Below are positions 218 to 6,678 of a stretch of 6,678 nucleotides of DNA, piece by piece (position 1 is the first letter of the stretch; each line of letters starts with the position of its first letter). Source of the stretch: an uncultured Porphyromonadaceae bacterium (lineage in GTDB: Bacteria; Bacteroidota; Bacteroidia; Bacteroidales; Muribaculaceae); NCBI GenBank assembly GCA_947178685.1, contig CAMWZE010000084.1, forward strand, positions 1-6,678, read 5' to 3'. The translations under genes were made by a program, and so were the position numbers. The notes under the pieces were generated by a model, which was given only the letters and a program-made list of their open reading frames with translations, searched no databases and was not told the DNA's origin.

Positions 218-592
218 TGTTGCAGTAACGACAACCAATCTGAAAACGTAAACTTGCGGCCCCTATCGATCCTAGGTTAACACTTACAACTGAAAGAATC
301 CGAATCTCTGATGACTTGCGCTTCGCATGACGGCACCTAATGGCGACGAACCATCGGCACGGTGGCACCGCCATTTTAGTGCCTACCTTGGAATATCACC
401 CCGTGGTGACTGCTCCGTGATTCTCACCGAGCAGTCACTCACCGTTTCACCGGAAAATTCACCAGTGCCTATGTTGTCGCATACAAAGTAATGACCGAAG
501 TTCGAGCAAGGGTGCTCAAATTCGGTCATCCCATTGTTAGCGACTGTGATGAAAAATCAGACTGAAAATGGATACTTGCCTGTAAGGCTACT
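218..592. repeat. Tandem repeat unit 1 (about 375 bp)
   Basis: This is the first and most diverged copy of a non-coding tandem unit. The landmark GACTTGCGC falls at 313, 688 and 1064, giving periods of 375 and 376 bp. Similarity to unit 2 is weak over the first 90 bases and strong from about 309 to the end. Inverted repeats inside include AATGGCG 339-345 with CGCCATT 369-375, a perfect 10-bp pair GTGACTGCTC 406-415 with GAGCAGTCAC 429-438, and a long hairpin at 491-529 whose outer arms are ATGACCGAA and TTCGGTCAT. No reading frame is preserved between units, which argues against coding function. Confidence 0.85.
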
Positions 593-968
593 AATCTGAA
601 AACGAAAACCAATCTGAAAACGATAAATTGCCGGCTCCTGTCAGTCATAGGCTGGCACTTATGACTGACGAGAGCCGAATCCTTGAAGACTTGCGCTGCG
701 CATAACGGCACCTAATGGCGACGAACCATCGGTACGGTGGCGCCGCCATTTCAGTGCCTACCTCGGAATATTACCCGGTGGTGACCGCTCCGTGATTCTC
801 ACCGAGCATTCACTCACCGTTTCACCGGAAGATTCACCAGTCCCTATGTTGTCGCAAACAAAGTAATGACCGAAGTTCGAGCAAGGGTGCTCAAATCCGG
901 TCATCCCATTGTTAGCGACTGTGATGAAAAATCAGACTGAAAACGGAGACTTGCCTGTAAAGGCTACT
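593..968. repeat. Tandem repeat unit 2 (376 bp)
   Basis: This is the second copy. Its first roughly 245 bases are identical, by eye, to unit 3 (969-1212), while its last roughly 130 bases are nearly identical to the end of unit 1, with only a few substitutions and one indel. It opens with two AATCTGAAAACG motifs (593-604 and 611-622). A perfect 10-bp stem follows, GTCAGTCATA 640-649 with TATGACTGAC 660-669. The ATGACC hairpin recurs at 866-904 with one base changed in the right arm. Confidence 0.88.
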
Positions 969-1340
969 AATCTGAAAACGAAAACCAATCTGAAAACGAT
1001 AAATTGCCGGCTCCTGTCAGTCATAGGCTGGCACTTATGACTGACGAGAGCCGAATCCTTGAAGACTTGCGCTGCGCATAACGGCACCTAATGGCGACGA
1101 ACCATCGGTACGGTGGCGCCGCCATTTCAGTGCCTACCTCGGAATATTACCCGGTGGTGACCGCTCCGTGATTCTCACCGAGCATTCACTCACCGTTTCA
1201 CCGGAAGATTCAGCAGTGCCTGGGGTGCCGCAAACGCCGTAATGACCGAGATTGAGCAGGGATGCTCCATTTCGGTCATTTCCGCGTTAGCGACTGTCGA
1301 CGATTCAATCTGAAACGCAGACTTGCCTATAACGGGAACC
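969..1340. repeat. Tandem repeat unit 3 (about 372 bp, diverged tail)
   Basis: This is the third copy. It matches unit 2 exactly up to about base 1212 and then diverges sharply, although the order of elements stays the same. The 10-bp stem at 1016-1025 with 1036-1045 is retained. The long hairpin is present at 1242-1279 with many changed bases in its left arm and loop, yet it still folds (ATGACCGAG with TTCGGTCAT, inner GAGCA with TGCTC). It runs into the start of a further partial unit at 1341 (AATCTAAAAACG). Confidence 0.85.
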
Positions 1341-1853: not shown

Positions 1854-2048
1854 ATGAGAGTGAAAAGATTGACAATCGAGCAAGGTGAGAGAGTCGGCAT
1901 AGACCGATTCCCAAACTTCCACAAGACAGGAAGCGTCAGAGGCATGAAGAAACTTTACTATGGCAACAACTGCCTATTGGTGAAGTGTGGGGATTATATA
2001 TACAATGTATCTTCCGAACCACAAATCTACAATCAGGCAACTTTCTAA
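1854..2048 (+). CDS. Hypothetical 64-residue protein
   Basis: No family is recognised. The N-terminal half is basic and polar (residues 1-30, with the run FPNFHKTGSVRGMKK at 19-33). The C-terminal half, LYYGNNCLLVKCGDYIYNVS (34-53), alternates hydrophobic and polar residues as a small beta-hairpin or barrel would, and holds two cysteines at 40 and 45. The ATG at 1854 starts five bases after the preceding stop. A second ATG at 1944 (residue 31) begins the better-ordered half and is a possible alternative start. The tight spacing with both neighbours suggests one transcript. Confidence 0.6.
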   Translation: MRVKRLTIEQGERVGIDRFPNFHKTGSVRGMKKLYYGNNCLLVKCGDYIYNVSSEPQIYNQATF

Positions 2049-2060
2049 ATTCCAATAACT

Positions 2061-2390
2061 ATGAACACGGATATAGACTTTATGAGCCTTTCAGAGAACG
2101 ACAAGGCATTTGTGAACGAGTTTGAGAACTTTGTAAATGGCAGAATGAGTAATGCCGAAAAGACCGGAATGGCGATTACAACAATGCACCGCTATCTACA
2201 GCAACAAGCCTTCAAGGTTTGTCTCGGTTATATCAAGGGGCTTGCCCATAACTACCGAAAGGGAAGATATGACCAGCGTAATGAGTGGGCTTCCCAACTC
2301 GCAGAGGTTGCATACAAATCTCTTATTGAGGCTGACCTCATTTACGACCCCGATTTTTCCACCACTGAAATAGTAAACACCTATGGATGA
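2061..2390 (+). CDS. Hypothetical helical protein, 109 residues
   Basis: No family is recognised. The composition suggests an all-helical soluble protein: an acidic first 30 residues, then a central amphipathic stretch (about 35-65) leading into the basic segment NYRKGRYDQR at 64-73, and a helical region 74-95 before an acidic tail. The ATG at 2061 has the same AACTATG context as the gene at 1705. Its stop overlaps the next gene by eight bases, which implies translational coupling. Its place between very small genes and a DUF2958 gene is typical of accessory blocks in Bacteroidales mobile elements, but gives no function. Confidence 0.65.
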   Translation: MNTDIDFMSLSENDKAFVNEFENFVNGRMSNAEKTGMAITTMHRYLQQQAFKVCLGYIKGLAHNYRKGRYDQRNEWASQLAEVAYKSLIEADLIYDPDFSTTEIVNTYG

Positions 2391-2550
2391 TATAGATTTC
2401 CCCGAATACGGAAAACAATGCGAACTCAAAGAGCCTTGGCGTGGCTACCACCGTGGCACTATCGTGGGACGTAACGGCTACCGCTTTATAGTAGAGTTTA
2501 GCAGTGGCGCGAGAGAAGAGTATTATGACGATGAAATAGAATTTGATTGA
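2383..2550 (+). CDS. Small acidic hypothetical protein, 55 residues
   Basis: A 55-codon frame opens with the ATG at 2383, overlapping the end of the previous gene by eight bases (ATGGATGA), and ends at TGA 2548-2550, one base before the next ATG. The protein begins MDDIDFPEYG, is rich in Trp, Tyr and Gly in the middle (residues 18-39, PWRGYHRGTIVGRN then YRFIVEF) and ends in an acidic cluster (45-55). That alternating pattern suggests a small beta-barrel of SH3 or Tudor shape, which is an inference only. The overlap on one side and the one-base gap on the other are strong evidence that it is real despite its size. Confidence 0.65.
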   Translation: MDDIDFPEYGKQCELKEPWRGYHRGTIVGRNGYRFIVEFSSGAREEYYDDEIEFD

Positions 2551-2551
2551 T

Positions 2552-2920
2552 ATGTGCAGACTATTGACACCCCAACTGGAGGAAGCCTTGAACGGCTTCC
2601 CCCTATACTCCCAGGACGGCAAGGGAAAAGACGCAATATGCCGTGCAATCTTTGTCTTCGGACGTGTTAGGTGGTTCGTCATTGAGGGGAACCGAGAGGG
2701 AAACGACCTTACTATGTTCGGCATCGTAATCGGACTTATGGAGGATGAATATGGATATATTTCCCTTAAAGAAATGTCCGATATAGAGATAGACCTTGAA
2801 GAAAAAGGACTTGGAAAAGGGAAGGTAAGGGTACAACAACTCGAGAACTTCAAGCCAACTCCCCTAAGCGAGATAAACGACATCAATCTCCAACGCTTCC
2901 TTTCAAGATTTGAGTATTAA
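2552..2920 (+). CDS. DUF2958 domain protein
   Basis: The 122-residue protein matches the DUF2958 pattern along its whole length: LLTPQLEEAL at 4-13, LYSQD at 19-23, a Trp-Phe-Val-x-Glu-Gly strand at 41-46, FGIVIGL then EYGYISLKEM at 56-75, and the closing F-K-P-x-P-L-S-E-I at 100-108. DUF2958 proteins are about this long and are common on plasmids, conjugative elements and prophages; their biochemical role is unknown to me. The ATG at 2552 is chosen over an in-frame TTG at 2543 because it follows the preceding stop by one base. It ends the rightward cluster. The family call is from memory of the motif pattern. Confidence 0.75.
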   Translation: MCRLLTPQLEEALNGFPLYSQDGKGKDAICRAIFVFGRVRWFVIEGNREGNDLTMFGIVIGLMEDEYGYISLKEMSDIEIDLEEKGLGKGKVRVQQLENFKPTPLSEINDINLQRFLSRFEY

Positions 2921-2924
2921 GAGT

Positions 2925-2961
2925 TATGTCAGCCGTGGAAATCGGATCCACGACTGACATA
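2925..2961. repeat. Hairpin after the DUF2958 gene
   Basis: TATGTCAGCCGTGG (2925-2938) pairs with CCACGACTGACATA (2948-2961) around a 9-base loop, with a single C-A mismatch. It begins four bases after the DUF2958 stop, but no T-run follows on either strand, so it is not a standard intrinsic terminator. It could protect the 3' end of the cluster's mRNA or bind a protein. Confidence 0.7.
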
Positions 2962-2968
2962 GAATCTA

Positions 2969-3007
2969 AAAAGCGACTTGCCATATCCCTCACGGACATG
3001 GCAAGTC
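2969..3007 (-). terminator. Intrinsic terminator for leftward transcripts
   Basis: GACTTGCCATATCC (2975-2988) pairs with GGACATGGCAAGTC (2994-3007) around the 5-base loop CTCAC, with one A-C mismatch. Read leftward, the stem is followed by GC and then five T residues (2972-2968). Read rightward it is followed by TGATTGTG, so termination is directional. It is the first strong terminator met by the leftward operon ending at 3373, and would make that transcript antisense to the whole gene at 3051-3434. The left flank is also a copy of the AATCTAAAAAGCGACTTGCC motif of the repeat array. Confidence 0.6.
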
Positions 3008-3050
3008 TGATTGTGTGGAATATATATCTACTATTGGAATCTAAAAGCCT

Positions 3051-3434
3051 ATGAAATTAAACGACATTGTAAGAATCGCCAAAGAGTCTGGCTGGCACAC
3101 CATTATCACCACTTCTGTTAACGGGGTTTCATATGTGGATTTTCAATGGAAAACCAAATCGGGACAGCCATTTACGTTTTCTGCAGAATGGGACCCCGAA
3201 AATGTAGAGAGTTTTATTATGGATATAGAGGAGACGGAGCAAGGCTTCAATCGGATGAACTATCTTAAAGAATCGTTAGAATCTCTTGCCGTCATTTCTT
3301 TATCGACGTATTTTGAATTAACCCGAGAGATTGAGGACATACATACCAGAATTTGGCTCCTGTGGGTCAACATCAAGTATCTTCAGGAACAGAAGACCAT
3401 CTGGAATCAGTTTCCTCCTTATTTGTGGAATTGA
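3051..3434 (+). CDS. Hypothetical protein, 127 residues
   Basis: The family is not recognised. The first 60 residues look like a compact alpha/beta fold: helix MKLNDIVRIAKESG, strands around 17-31 (HTIITTSVNGVSYVDF), then KTKSGQPFTFSAEW at 34-47. The last 60 residues are helical (68-115) and end in an aromatic tail, QFPPYLWN. The start follows the twin hairpins and a copy of the AATCTAAAA motif; a weak TACTATTG box lies upstream but without a good -33 box. The final 62 bases overlap the end of the converging leftward gene. Either tail may be an extension created when two modules joined. Confidence 0.6.
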   Translation: MKLNDIVRIAKESGWHTIITTSVNGVSYVDFQWKTKSGQPFTFSAEWDPENVESFIMDIEETEQGFNRMNYLKESLESLAVISLSTYFELTREIEDIHTRIWLLWVNIKYLQEQKTIWNQFPPYLWN

Positions 3435-3717
3435 TAGGCTTACCAGGAGTTGGGAACGGTACGCGACGCCTTCCCAACTTAGGCAATCCTTCAGCCTTAA
3501 ATGCTATAAGGTCTGACCCCTTTATGAGTTTCCGGAAAGAACATGGCATTTTCCGGGATTCAATGGGACAAGACTTCGAGGAGAGATACCTATACAAGGA
3601 CATCCGACTCTTACCCAACAATCGGGCAGCCTTTGCAACCGAATAATACTCATCCGGAAGAATAGTATTATCATCGGTTGAATATTTGGGAGACCTTTTC
3701 GATTGATGAATTTCCAT
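3373..3717 (-). CDS. Helix-turn-helix protein, AlpA/excisionase-like (HTH_17)
   Basis: Using the ATG at 3717 the protein has 114 residues. Residues 24-50 (YYSVAKAARLLGKSRMSLYRYL) form the winged helix-turn-helix shared by AlpA, excisionase and MerR-type proteins, followed by RKLIKGSDLIAF (62-73), the usual second strand and helix. A long basic, Pro-rich tail from about 80 has no domain. A GTG at 3759 would add 14 residues and overlap the ATPase stop. It is last in the leftward operon. Family members bind short DNA repeats to control excision or integrase expression; that role here is inferred. A 9-bp inverted repeat, AGTTGGGAA with TTCCCAACT (3448-3479), lies inside the tail codons. Confidence 0.65.
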   Translation of the reverse strand: MEIHQSKRSPKYSTDDNTILPDEYYSVAKAARLLGKSRMSLYRYLSSKSCPIESRKMPCSFRKLIKGSDLIAFKAEGLPKLGRRRVPFPTPGKPINSTNKEETDSRWSSVPEDT

Positions 3718-3749
3718 TCTGATTAAAATTGAATGAAGCTGTTTGGAAA

Positions 3750-4424
3750 TTACAGACACCTAAAGGTATCGCCATTGAACTGTACCACATGCGCCATCTC
3801 TTCAAGACGGTCAGCACATCTATGGGTGTATCTGGGTCGTATATCCTTGAATGTCATATTCGTTGAAAGAATCGTATATTGCATACGAGCATAACGAGCT
3901 TCTATCAAGTCTATGATGGGGGTGTACTTCATTCCGTAGTGAACTATCTCGGCTGGTTCACTGCCCCAGTCATCGATCATTATCATGTCCTCCAGTCGAT
4001 AGGTGTGCGTGCCATCCATTATCTCCTTTACCATGTTCTTAGCAGATATTATTGGAATGGAGGTATTGAAAGGTTTCAAATGAGCCATAGCATCATGGCA
4101 TTTTAAGTAGACAAAATGTATTAGGGAACGGATTGCATACATCATAGTCGTTTTGCCGTTACCATAAGTGCCCATGAGAATGATTGCGAATCGGTGTGAG
4201 GGGGTACCGAGTATTTGGGCAATTTGGAGTATCTGGGAATTAAGTTCGGGGGTAGGTATAAAACTGCGAAGGCGAGTTTCTACCTGATGCTTGTAGAATT
4301 GCAAGAGCAGGTCTGCAATAACAGGGATAGGAAGATTGATGCTAAAACCGGCCTTGGGGAACATTCCCTGGTCCATAAGGTGGCGCATCAAATCCAAGTC
4401 TCCCATCTTCTTGGGCTGTGCCAT
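3750..4424 (-). CDS. DnaC-like AAA+ ATPase, probable helicase loader
   Basis: The 224-residue protein has a Walker A loop GTYGNGKTT at 85-93, a Walker B segment MIMIDDWG at 147-154, a sensor-1 asparagine in STN at 187-189, and an arginine-finger box RCADRL at 202-207. This set and spacing is that of the DnaC/DnaI/IstB group of AAA+ proteins. With no transposase beside it, and a DnaD-like gene directly upstream, a helicase-loader role at the element's origin is the best reading. The N-terminal 80 residues are helical and probably bind a partner. The ATG at 4424 lies inside the upstream gene, giving an 83-base overlap; in-frame ATGs at 4406, 4388, 4376 and 4364 are alternatives. The two-base-class spacing to the next gene implies one operon. 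Confidence 0.8.
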   Translation of the reverse strand: MAQPKKMGDLDLMRHLMDQGMFPKAGFSINLPIPVIADLLLQFYKHQVETRLRSFIPTPELNSQILQIAQILGTPSHRFAIILMGTYGNGKTTMMYAIRSLIHFVYLKCHDAMAHLKPFNTSIPIISAKNMVKEIMDGTHTYRLEDMIMIDDWGSEPAEIVHYGMKYTPIIDLIEARYARMQYTILSTNMTFKDIRPRYTHRCADRLEEMAHVVQFNGDTFRCL

Positions 4425-5124
4425 TGTCTTTTTGAGGATATTGTTTAGTTTTCTGTTTATTGGAAAGCTTAATCTCTTGTGATTTCCTTAGCCAGTTGAA
4501 TAAATGGTGCTTTATAATCCCAATTTCGGCTGGATCATCTTGCTTGGCAAGACGTTCTCGAAAGAAATCTTCAGCCGTCTGTCTAAGTTCGGCTGCACTC
4601 TTTTTGAGAGTGCCGGCCGTGTTCATCCAGAATTGTTCATCTTCTCGAATTTCTTTAAAAATCTTTTCAAATTCCTCGCGTGAAGAAGATGAAGAAGAAT
4701 TTTCTTTATTATTATTTTCTTTTATATGGGCTGATTTGCGGTTGGACTTGGGGTCGGGAGGATGTCCTTTTACTCTGGAATCTGGAGTATTTTTTAATCC
4801 TTTCGGAGACTTCATTTCCATAAAATCCAATACAGTAATAAGGGTATATTTTGGAAATATCTCTTTTCGAATCATTCCACCTTCTTCCAGAGTCTTTAAG
4901 AAGTCCATCGTACACTGTTTCCCGCATTGGAAATGAGAACTAAGTATTCTCATGGTTGTGGCAAACTGCCCCCTTTTCACTTCTACACGGCTTTTGCCTA
5001 TCATTACAGCTCCATCCTCCCACTGACAAAGGAATAGCATCTTAACCCACATCTGGAAGTGACGTGGGTTATGCCATAACCAATGGTGTTCGAGATCTCG
5101 CGATAAAGCAATCCAGCCACCCAT
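4342..5124 (-). CDS. DnaD-like winged-helix replication protein
   Basis: The 260-residue protein starts with a domain (1-102) containing MGGWIALSRDLEHHWLW and a winged-helix core (50-100, RGQFATTMRILSS...EEGGMIRKE), as in phage replisome organisers and DnaD-type initiators. A low-complexity linker follows (103-150), with an Asn run and six Ser at 143-148. A helical C-terminal domain (150-217) ends in IIKHHLFNWLRKSQEI, resembling the small C-terminal domain called DUF7833 in Bacteroidetes replication proteins; that match is from memory. The tail (218-260) is disordered. It probably binds the element's origin and recruits the ATPase encoded immediately downstream, whose start overlaps this gene by 83 bases. 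It starts 36 bases after the AlpA-like gene. Confidence 0.7.
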   Translation of the reverse strand: MGGWIALSRDLEHHWLWHNPRHFQMWVKMLFLCQWEDGAVMIGKSRVEVKRGQFATTMRILSSHFQCGKQCTMDFLKTLEEGGMIRKEIFPKYTLITVLDFMEMKSPKGLKNTPDSRVKGHPPDPKSNRKSAHIKENNNKENSSSSSSREEFEKIFKEIREDEQFWMNTAGTLKKSAAELRQTAEDFFRERLAKQDDPAEIGIIKHHLFNWLRKSQEIKLSNKQKTKQYPQKDNGTAQEDGRLGFDAPPYGPGNVPQGRF

Positions 5125-5160: not shown

Positions 5161-5358
5161 CTACACCTGACGTTGCCAGAATTTGAGAATCTCGCTTCCA
5201 AGATAGAATTTCTTGGCAGTGGCCATCCTGGTTCCTACTTTTATCCTACCGGTCTGGGTATATTTTCGCAGAGAATTTTTGTGGATTCCGAGCAACTTAC
5301 AAGTCTCTGTTACTGAATATCTGCCATCCGGAGTGACAACTGGCATTTCAGAGACCAT
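5161..5358 (-). CDS. Small AlpA/excisionase-like HTH protein
   Basis: The 65-residue protein is almost entirely one HTH_17 domain: YSVTETCKLLGIHKNSLRKYTQTGRI at 14-39, then FYLGSEILKFW at 51-61. Such proteins (AlpA, Xis, Cox types) bind repeated DNA sites to bend DNA for excision or to regulate integrase and replication genes. The ATG at 5358 is chosen over the adjacent TTG at 5361 because an AAGGAGGT Shine-Dalgarno sequence (5371-5364) sits five bases upstream. The gene overlaps the Cro-like gene by 11 bases. It shares its fold with the last gene of the operon, so the operon carries two such proteins. Confidence 0.75.
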   Translation of the reverse strand: MVSEMPVVTPDGRYSVTETCKLLGIHKNSLRKYTQTGRIKVGTRMATAKKFYLGSEILKFWQRQV

Positions 5359-5593
5359 CAACTACCTCCTTTTCCGGAAAGAGATACGCAGCATCCACAT
5401 TAAGGGTGTCCGCTATGATATTGCAGATTAGTTTTTCTGGCTTGAACTTACCGCTTATCCACATCCGTACGGTCAACTCAGACCGACCTGTGGCAGCTGC
5501 AAGGTCCTTGATCATGGCTCTTGCAGGCGACTCCACTTGGGCTTTCTTCTTTTCCTCGTAGAGCTTTTTCAATGATATTTTCCTTTTATCCAC
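5348..5593 (-). CDS. Cro-like small HTH regulator
   Basis: The 81-residue protein has a basic N-terminus (1-18, KKLYEEKKK) and a lambda-repressor-type helix-turn-helix at about 27-72: MIKDLAAATGRSELTVRMWISGK with the recognition helix near 38-48, then KLICNIIADTLNVDAAYLFPE. It starts with GTG at 5593; the next ATG (residue 27) would cut into the domain. It is first in the leftward operon, opposite the XRE repressor gene, the position of Cro in phage switches. It probably binds the TGATTAA sites in the intergenic region to repress the opposing promoter or limit its own. That role is inferred from position and size. Confidence 0.7.
   Translation of the reverse strand: MDKRKISLKKLYEEKKKAQVESPARAMIKDLAAATGRSELTVRMWISGKFKPEKLICNIIADTLNVDAAYLFPEKEVVDGL
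5364..5371 (-). promoter_or_regulatory. Full Shine-Dalgarno AAGGAGGT
   Basis: An eight-base Shine-Dalgarno sequence lies five bases before the ATG at 5358, inside the end of the Cro-like gene. Bacteroidales genes seldom use one, and no other start in this window has a comparable sequence. It may ensure strong or independent translation of the AlpA-like protein. Confidence 0.65.
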
Positions 5594-5770: not shown

Positions 5771-6262
5771 ATGCGCCCTAAAGGTCAATTATTTGATTTG
5801 AAAGGCTTTAGGAATTTCTATGGCCTTACCCAAAAAGAGATTGCAGAGGCTGTCAAAAGACCCTCCAGTTTCCTTTCAGCCATTGAACATGGCAAGAGGT
5901 CGGCCCCAAAGGCATTCTTGGATGAACTGGTGATTATTTATGGAGCCAAGAATATTTCGGATTTTCTAAGTGATCCAGTGGCTCCTCTTAACGGTGATGT
6001 CAGGAATGTCAAGAACTCCTTGGTTAACTCTCCAGGAGGTATGTATGTCCCTCAGGAAGTAGCCATGAAGATAAAGGAGTCAGAGAACACTGAGCGAAGT
6101 CAGGTCAAAACCATCTCCTCGTCTGAAGCTCCTGAGACGTATCAATCATTTGTAAAGCTGCTATTGGCAGCCGAAGAAAGATTAGAAAAAGCCAATGACC
6201 GGATTCGGGAATTAGAAGCTGAAAATGCCCAACTCAAGAGAGAGTTGGACGCAAAAATTTGA
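5771..6262 (+). CDS. XRE-family repressor with C-terminal coiled coil
   Basis: The 163-residue protein has an N-terminal helix-turn-helix at about 8-56: helix 2 TQKEIAEAVKR (20-30) and recognition helix PSSFLSAIEHGKR (31-43). The middle (65-120) is Ser/Pro-rich and probably flexible. Residues 124-162 form a clear coiled coil, with KLLLAAEERLEKANDRIREL and further Leu spacing, for dimer or tetramer formation. There is no S24/LexA peptidase domain, so RecA-driven self-cleavage is not expected. It reads away from the leftward operon across a shared control region, the position of CI in a phage switch or of the master repressor in a phage satellite. No terminator of its own is visible before the tRNA-half site. 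Confidence 0.75.
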   Translation: MRPKGQLFDLKGFRNFYGLTQKEIAEAVKRPSSFLSAIEHGKRSAPKAFLDELVIIYGAKNISDFLSDPVAPLNGDVRNVKNSLVNSPGGMYVPQEVAMKIKESENTERSQVKTISSSEAPETYQSFVKLLLAAEERLEKANDRIRELEAENAQLKRELDAKI

Positions 6263-6265
6263 TAT

Positions 6266-6286
6266 GCATGCACAAACGCGTGCACA
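6266..6286. repeat. Direct repeat GCRTGCACA x2 (12-bp period)
   Basis: GCATGCACA (6266-6274) and GCGTGCACA (6278-6286) lie between the repressor stop and the attachment core, about 60-80 bp from the core. The 12-bp period equals that of the TGAACACAA pair on the other side. They may be accessory-protein or arm-type sites, but the evidence is only position and spacing. Confidence 0.35.
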
Positions 6287-6346
6287 TAATAAGAGATAAT
6301 AAAAAACTAATTAGTAATCAGACGCTTGAAGTGGTTACGTCCCTCT

Positions 6347-6388
6347 CTCATAATCAGGGAGTCCTTGGTTCAAGCCCAAGTGGGACCA
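6347..6388 (+). other. 3' half of tRNA-Met(CAU): probable integration att core
   Basis: From 6347 the sequence reads as the 3' part of a tRNA: anticodon loop CTCATAA (CAT at 6349-6351), 3' anticodon-stem strand TCAGG, variable loop GAGTC, T arm CTTGG-TTCAAGC-CCAAG (6364-6380), acceptor strand TGGGACC and discriminator A6388. CCA is not encoded. The 5' half is absent: the bases before 6347 (CCTCT) do not pair with TCAGG, and no GGTCCCA acceptor strand or D arm lies upstream. Tyrosine integrases often use a tRNA 3' half as crossover core, so this is probably one junction of an element. It cannot make a working tRNA alone. Confidence 0.8.
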
Positions 6389-6401
6389 CCTCTTAAAAAT
6401 C

Positions 6402-6439
6402 AAGCAGTTACGACAACAATCGTAGCTGCTTTTTCTTTT
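6402..6439 (+). terminator. Intrinsic terminator after the tRNA half
   Basis: AAGCAGTTACGA (6402-6413) pairs with TCGTAGCTGCTT (6420-6431) over 12 bp including one T-G pair, with loop CAACAA and a following T-rich tract. It would end tRNA transcription in the intact locus and, here, read-through from the XRE repressor gene. It may belong to the conserved att region, since it lies 13 bases after the core. Confidence 0.85.
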
Positions 6440-6443
6440 GTTT

Positions 6444-6525
6444 TGAACACAAATCTGAACACAACTCCGCGCCAACTCCATTTTGCTATGCCTTACTATG
6501 TCTTGTGTTCATCGTATTGTGCTCA
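6444..6525. repeat. Four 9-bp sites TGAACACAA, two direct and two inverted
   Basis: TGAACACAA occurs at 6444-6452 and 6456-6464 (12-bp period). Its reverse complement TTGTGTTCA occurs at 6503-6511, and TTGTGCTCA, one base different, at 6517-6525 (14-bp period). Two pairs in opposite orientation 55-140 bp from a tRNA-type core is how arm-type integrase sites or excisionase sites are arranged. No protein is identified to bind them. Confidence 0.5.
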
Positions 6526-6678
6526 ATTGATAACTTAAGGCAATCTCCACTTTCGATCCAAATCCACGCTGATTACCGGCTATTTTCTATCCAAAATAAG
6601 GTGAACGCCTGACATTATGCGCTGATACTATCTGACAACCACTGATCCCACTCAAAAAATTGGGGGTGGTATTTATAT
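6526..6678. other. Right edge, no feature seen
   Basis: No credible reading frame, RNA gene or promoter was found. The open frame covering 6326-6538 crosses the tRNA half and the terminator and is not a gene. An integrase gene, if the element's integration end lies on this side, would have to begin beyond the window. Confidence 0.5.

Follow-up and report, generated by a model that had tools for sequence, protein, structure and literature searches.

The window, by which we mean the whole stretch of 6,678 nucleotides analysed here, most probably (probability about 0.95) spans the attR of an integrated mobile element, labelled W, that lies to the left of position 6347 and was inserted in a tRNA-Met gene of a gut Bacteroidales bacterium. 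By comparison of sequences, the element and host sides of the junction, both ends of W (in other genomes), the duplication of the tRNA 3' half and a crossover interval of eight bases could all be demonstrated. In the proposed mechanism, a tyrosine integrase of the element would exchange strands between CTCATAAT in attP and the same bases of the anticodon loop of the host tRNA-Met gene. The other end of the element would supply a terminator-like hairpin of its own together with a 3' half that replaces the host's; because that end carries the replacement half, the host tRNA would stay intact at attL. The 3' half and downstream DNA that the host had to begin with would be displaced to the far end, where they would form 6347-6678. 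The attP of W would consist of the right end followed by CTCATAATCAGG...GGGACCAC and then caaatttt. The actor is probably a tyrosine integrase with an arm-binding domain, by analogy with the enzymes seen at the corresponding end of relatives; the window's own host presumably carries the same attL, and W is presumably able to excise.

The tRNA-Met half and its host flank

By blastn against plasmid records, the 43 bases at 6347-6389 were 100% identical to 10001-10043 of a Parabacteroides distasonis record (L002), in which ARAGORN identified an intact tRNA-Met(CAT) at 9969-10043. ARAGORN made zero tRNA calls in the window. The sequence-only reading had described 6347-6388 as the 3' half of a tRNA-Met, and this was confirmed: judged by its match to L002, the feature (6347..6388, plus strand) corresponds exactly to the 3' half of an elongator tRNA-Met(CAU) of Bacteroidales, running from position 32 to the discriminator base, and it represents the displaced, host-derived sequence to the right of the crossover in attR. 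An exact 42-base match to the 3' half of a tRNA exceeds by far what chance would be expected to produce. The Rfam tRNA model scored 12 bits on the half tRNA, against a gathering score of 29. At gathering scores no Rfam family matched anywhere in the window, and at E ≤1 the repeats and the hairpin returned only plant or animal microRNA models, below their cut-offs.

Identity between the window and L002 starts precisely at C32, where the anticodon loop begins, and breaks between tRNA positions 31 and 32. It had been proposed that the 5' half was replaced and the anticodon stem broken. The replacement was borne out, but loss of the stem had been slightly overstated: when the 5' CCTCT was read against the 3' TCAGG, three of the five pairs were kept, and only the two loop-adjacent pairs were lost.

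The sequence to the right of the half (6389..6678, plus strand) corresponds to host chromosome downstream of tRNA-Met, a similar flank being present 3' of the intact gene in relatives. It opens with a terminator-like hairpin at about 6402-6436, recognised by eye. When 6347-6678 was searched against the 397 genomes of the family of G002, matches were obtained in 344, and among the matches listed many span little beyond the tRNA half. The best 30 loci were fetched. The best flank match covered query bases 1-332 at 78% (G770, L049), and five flank matches spanned query bases 1-137 at 92-94%, including that of L054 and, at 94%, that of L051 (G613). An intact tRNA-Met was present in 24 of the 30 best loci, and in 23 the flank match begins inside that tRNA; in the remaining one (L069) the longer flank match adjoins the tRNA rather than starting in it. 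From their arrangement (tRNA 5' half, 3' half, then a flank like that of the window) these 23 loci are judged to be empty sites. The proposal of an insertion would have been weakened if the tRNA-Met of relatives always carried a different 3' half; the window flank was instead found after an intact tRNA-Met in 23 of the 30 best loci.

No intact tRNA was found in six of the 30 best loci (L054, L059, L065, L074, L076 and L077). In L054 and L059 other sequence replaces the 5' half, and on this comparison these are different elements at the same site. Altogether, copies of the tRNA-Met half or tail after unrelated sequence, some with ggatata, were observed in L054, L059, L065, L076 and at 5380-5480 of L014. 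The tRNA-Met gene appears to be an insertion hot spot shared by several elements.

The two ends of W and the crossover interval

The genome_contigs collection was scanned for copies of the half tRNA in which base 31 is not A, and 22 loci were obtained. Fifteen of these, all from Bacteroidota by their titles, were covered by flanks, tRNA scan and BLAST, with one genome pattern search in addition for L017 and L026. In L006, L014 and L022 the sequence to the left of the half was identical to the window, and the right flanks were three different ones. The blastn matches, which include the shared half, cover 119 bases at 100% (L006), 120 at 99.2% (L014) and 117 at 100% (L022). In a fourth genome, G399, the right end of W adjoins a broken menD-like gene and equals that of the window across all 119 bases present there. 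Up to and including the core, the right end was identical over 81-119 bases in the four genomes, which is all of this end that their contigs contain. An exact search of viral_contigs for the left and right ends of W returned no match. Relatives of the regulatory or replication proteins of the window adjoin a half tRNA in L009, L016 and L024 of genome_contigs and in L001 and L028 of the viral collection. The suggestion that the DNA left of 6347 is a mobile element in tRNA-Met was upheld by the recurrence of the same end in four other genomes beside other right flanks, and the assignment of the left side to a mobile element and of the sequence right of 6388 to the chromosome holds on these alignments.

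The other end of W was recognised from genomes that carry more than one copy of the half. G001 (the genome of L006) and G002 (that of L014) each contain two, one in an intact tRNA-Met and one as the half only. After the intact copy both genomes read caaattttaagaatctgattttaagc..., identical for 75 and 45 bases, to the end of the contig; in L025, one of the 22 loci and from G399, the half is followed by this sequence too. The other end of W begins caaattttaagaatc in three genomes (G001, G002 and G399), after an intact tRNA-Met in two and inside the menD-like gene in one. The left-end contigs end 45-77 bases beyond the tRNA half. In G003 the right end of W alone was found. The left ends in G006, G005, G004 and G001/G002 each open with their own terminator-like hairpin after the tRNA 3' half (by eye), as if the elements bring a replacement terminator.

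Both junctions were recovered in G399. The left junction reads ...gccttcCTCATAATcagggagtcc..., where a menD-like frame of 453 codons ends in the half. The right junction, on a separate contig and without a tRNA half, reads ...cgtccctctCTCATAATaggggatctaacg..., and the remainder of the menD-like protein continues from there. Because the caaatttt end and the right end of the window both interrupt this gene, they are taken as the two ends of one element. When the flanks were joined, a frame of 585 codons resulted, which matched L199 at 39.6% over residues 1-567, most of its length being aligned. In eleven further menD-like homologue loci (L199-L209) the open frame is 561-608 codons long, the range over all homologues listed being 502-668. 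In the draft genome of G399, no other tRNA-Met 3' half was found within 2 mismatches, although the search with window 6347-6678 counts a second match there, outside those listed. The presence of W in the menD-like gene is an off-target insertion. The two contigs concerned, G399:C46 (L083, 9532-10890) and G399:C13 (L220), place W within a menD-like gene of an apparent polysaccharide cluster.

The bases common to the two G399 junctions are CTCATAAT, with none further on either side. Since the junctions share only these, strand exchange is placed within 6347..6354 (plus strand), which comprises the anticodon loop C32-A38 plus T39. The sequence-only reading had put the crossover either at the anticodon loop or immediately 5' to it, and this proved right, the G399 junctions locating it within the loop plus one base. 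A crossover at the tRNA 3' end, as the left junction of G004:C129 might indicate, was considered and rejected: the sequence left of that junction is also present in G552 (L074), free of the prophage, and its recurrence in G004 itself (L088), with few changes, also counts against it. The sequence at this junction is better read as another, ATPase-carrying element in the tRNA tail. At 4.3 kb and 46.7-48.3 kb of G004:C129 (L116 and L088), two copies of a unit with an ATPase-like gene, each with a 13-base tRNA-Met tail at its end, flank the prophage, which suggests a second element using the 3' end of the same tRNA-Met gene.

Putative integrase sites and gene content

No integrase was found in the window, and none was assigned to W. 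The integrase that follows the intact tRNA-Met of G006:C248 carries PF13102, PF00589 and the arm-binding domain PF17293. Its relatives were found in G787 (70%; the L001 record, 43509-44819), on G005:C158 (65%), where the contig start truncates the tRNA, and on G004:C129 (59%). In G006, G005, G004 and G787 the integrase lies at the end opposite the half tRNA. When nine genomes or records were searched with the G006-type integrase, G788 alone gave no match, and G001, G002, G003 and G399 gave weak ones (best E 3e-25), which do not show the integrase of W.

Two 11-base direct repeats with a step of 12 bases, ATGCATGCACA / ACGCGTGCACA (6264..6286, plus strand; 9 of 11 bases alike), mark putative integrase arm-type sites. 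A repeat pair at this step, starting about 84 bases before the core, is common to six right ends (the window, L024, L009, L016, L001 and L028). Over the six, the mean match was 8.83 of 11 bases, whereas 1000 base-shuffles reached 6.17 at most (0/1000 as good); single ends ranged from 7 (L016) to 11 (L009), the window giving 9. The sequence of the repeat varies between elements and recurs at each element's own left end, with 13, 24, 9 and 10 shared bases in G006, G005, G004 and G787, respectively; the two ends of G006 share AGACTTGCAAGTA. Among the 24 possible assignments of left to right arm motifs in these four elements, the true pairing gave the highest sum (rank 1), although the left end of G004 shared 11 bases with the right end of G005 and 9 with its own. 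From these comparisons the repeat pairs are likely to be integrase arm-type sites. The right end of W shared at most 7-9 bases with the four known left ends. At the left end of W, arm sites similar to GCGTGCACA and with the 12-base step are predicted, with an integrase carrying an arm-binding domain just inside. When the right ends were compared side by side, an A+T-rich box, TTAGTAATCAG (6311..6321, plus strand), was seen to resemble TTATTAATCAG of L001 and L028, with variants in the remaining right ends; that it is a site for a bending protein or Xis is a guess.

Leftwards from the junction, the window holds a CI-like repressor, a small regulator, an excisionase-like HTH protein, a DnaD-like and a DnaC-like protein, a further HTH protein, four small ORFs and a tandem repeat. 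The phage-type (CI-like) repressor (5771..6262, plus strand; PHROG transcriptional repressor, E 4e-5) has a counterpart at the corresponding position in L024 and L016 (tblastn); among 393 genomes from the order to which G002 belongs, 6 gave matches to it (best E 1.3e-6). The second small regulator, Cro-like by position (5348..5593, minus strand; PHROG transcriptional repressor, E 5e-4), has relatives in L024, L016, L009, L028 and L001. Two HTH_17 proteins are excisionase-like, one at 5161..5361 (minus strand; PF12728 above its cut-off, PHROG excisionase E 7e-4) and one at 3373..3759 (minus strand; PF12728 below its cut-off, PHROG excisionase E 2e-4). Between them lie a DnaD-like helicase loader (4342..5124, minus strand; phrog_2514, E 2.5e-22) and a DnaC-like helicase loader (3750..4424, minus strand; phrog_50, E 1e-16); no relative of the DnaC protein was confirmed in viral_contigs.

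The four small ORFs (1854-2048, 2061-2390, 2543-2920 and 3051-3434; together 1854..3434, plus strand) form a cluster that recurs in the fetched relatives. The third resembles a DUF2958-annotated protein of CP103159.1 (37% identity over 62% of the query) and has relatives in 17 of 387 genomes; in the stretches fetched (L184, L185, L188, L190, L196 and L005) the adjacent ORFs and the HTH gene mostly accompany it. Its relative in L005 adjoins a type III restriction enzyme and methyltransferase; that in L184 and L190 occurs with an integrase beside tRNA-Lys, and that in L185 beside tRNA-Arg. A strong hairpin lies upstream of the cluster at 1495-1588 (-40.3 kcal/mol for 1490-1590, z -5.24), and similar DNA is present in L004, L005, L191, L188, L189 and L196. 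On the element side, a 375-base tandem repeat of 2.9 copies (227..1297) lies in a region that is 67-72% alike in L024, and it gave no useful Rfam match. L024 has a 345-base tandem repeat at the corresponding place.

Rival readings and known systems

That the window is the element's own attP, from a circular form or a phage genome, with its right side leading to the integrase, is highly improbable. L001, in which a half tRNA-Met lies between a repressor and a convergent integrase gene, gave the first impression of such an arrangement. The right flank of the window, however, matches the chromosome after the intact tRNA-Met of relatives, and the other end of W begins caaattttaagaatc, not cctcttaaaaatc, in three genomes. 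The G006-type integrase of L001 (70%) lies at the far end, at 43509-44819, and is the sole such match in the record, which makes the convergent integrase one of a different type. L001 as an attP was ruled out by this relative of the attL integrase at the far end together with the host-flank matches. Still less credible is a decayed or chimeric tRNA that owes its form to a point deletion or to faulty assembly, no mobile element being involved. By their titles, the genomes on which most depends (G001, G002, G003 and G399) are indeed drafts assembled from metagenomes. The stretches of element at contig ends measure 117-120 bases for the right ends of L006, L014 and L022 and 119 for that of G399, and 117, 87 and 119 for the left ends. 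Where one element is present in several hosts, an assembler of the MEGAHIT type yields contigs whose first bases are an overlap of fixed length at the branching repeat. The genomes of L006, L014, L022 and L025 may belong to the bank vole metagenome set of PMC7511399, and the available text of that paper describes 254 metagenome-assembled genomes, with MEGAHIT run on single samples and CD-HIT-EST and Minimus also cited. Later merging of contigs by these last two is possible. A chimera breaking at an 8-base core match while keeping the reading frame is not expected, and the artefact reading leaves unexplained the same left flank in independent contexts, the second end in three genomes and the restored menD-like frame. 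The junctions of W are thus unlikely to be assembly artefacts, and integration at tRNA-Met is the preferred reading.

As to the kind of element, we lean slightly towards an integrative mobilizable or conjugative island with a phage-like integrase and regulatory end, an assignment that is itself tentative, over a prophage, which is somewhat less probable. If W were a prophage, the CI, Cro, DnaD and DnaC proteins would form the early region of a temperate phage, with head and tail genes left of the window. L028, with a similar right-end architecture, encodes a terminase and a head protease (PHROGs), and on G004:C129 an int gene and the half tRNA-Met lie ~42 kb apart with an intervening frame that begins like the L028 terminase (by eye). 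Against this, no structural gene was found among the ten window ORFs tested, in which no terminase was recognised, and relatives of part of the region in L005 adjoin type III restriction-modification genes. The closest relative, L024 of G006 (DnaD 65%, DnaC 66% and repressor 60% relative to the window), has a partner-end contig on which the integrase lies near a relaxase and a DUF4134 protein. An island is favoured by this genome in another respect: two copies of the tRNA-Met 3' half were found in it, one in the intact tRNA on the contig with the integrase and relaxase (PF03432) and one beside the W-like module, and the two ends have AGACTTGCAAGTA in common. However, these ends are on separate contigs, so that a tandem of two elements is possible, and no relaxase was recognised in the ten tested window ORFs. 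A broader proposal, that one element with a phage-type switch and a helicase-loader pair circulates in several Bacteroidales species of one host population, as a natural gene disrupter and an unnamed class of integrative island, is unlikely; under it, the integrase would need little beyond the 8-base loop and would for that reason land in unrelated genes such as the menD-like one. W occurs in five host contexts, including one off-target site, which suggests recent movement.

Integration into tRNA anticodon loops is textbook knowledge, and Williams 2002 is said to be the source paper on sublocations within tRNA genes. The available text of PMC8371274 reports that the 7-base anticodon loop and its stem are the counterparts of overlap and core in lambda-type sites, that integration reconstitutes the tRNA sequence and that secondary sites exist. 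W resembles the tyrosine-integrase elements described there in having loop and stem as overlap and core, a duplicated 3' half and a rebuilt tRNA; relative to that portion of the paper no mechanistic difference was found, and the crossover of W was mapped to 8 bases from natural junctions. NBU1 of Bacteroides, as covered in the accessible part of PMC10865867, likewise recombines in a tRNA gene, but its core overlaps the 3' end of tRNA-Leu whereas that of W is the anticodon loop. The same text states that secondary sites share only part of the core, and describes phage Fionnbharth, which normally uses a tRNA gene and was found in unrelated genes sharing part of the core, as W was. The Fionnbharth secondary sites arose very infrequently, in a mutant with a tRNA defect, whereas that of W comes from a single natural draft genome and shares 8 bases. 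Such insertions leave tRNA fragments, according to the passages available from PMC9897764. Set beside these three sources, the insertion of W is a known kind of event; what is new is the element W, its Bacteroidales tRNA-Met site and the precision of the natural mapping. In a search for literature on Bacteroidales or Muribaculaceae prophages in tRNA genes, no paper on W was among the matches listed.

From draft genomes alone, a half tRNA seen by eye was resolved into an insertion with both ends, an empty site and an eight-base exchange point, and the attP core is now available for finding the integrase of W and for testing host range among Bacteroidales. The DnaC-like loader, the only protein compared in this case, was 32% identical over 86% of the query to that of the Bacteroides phage Versailles (ON453897.1).
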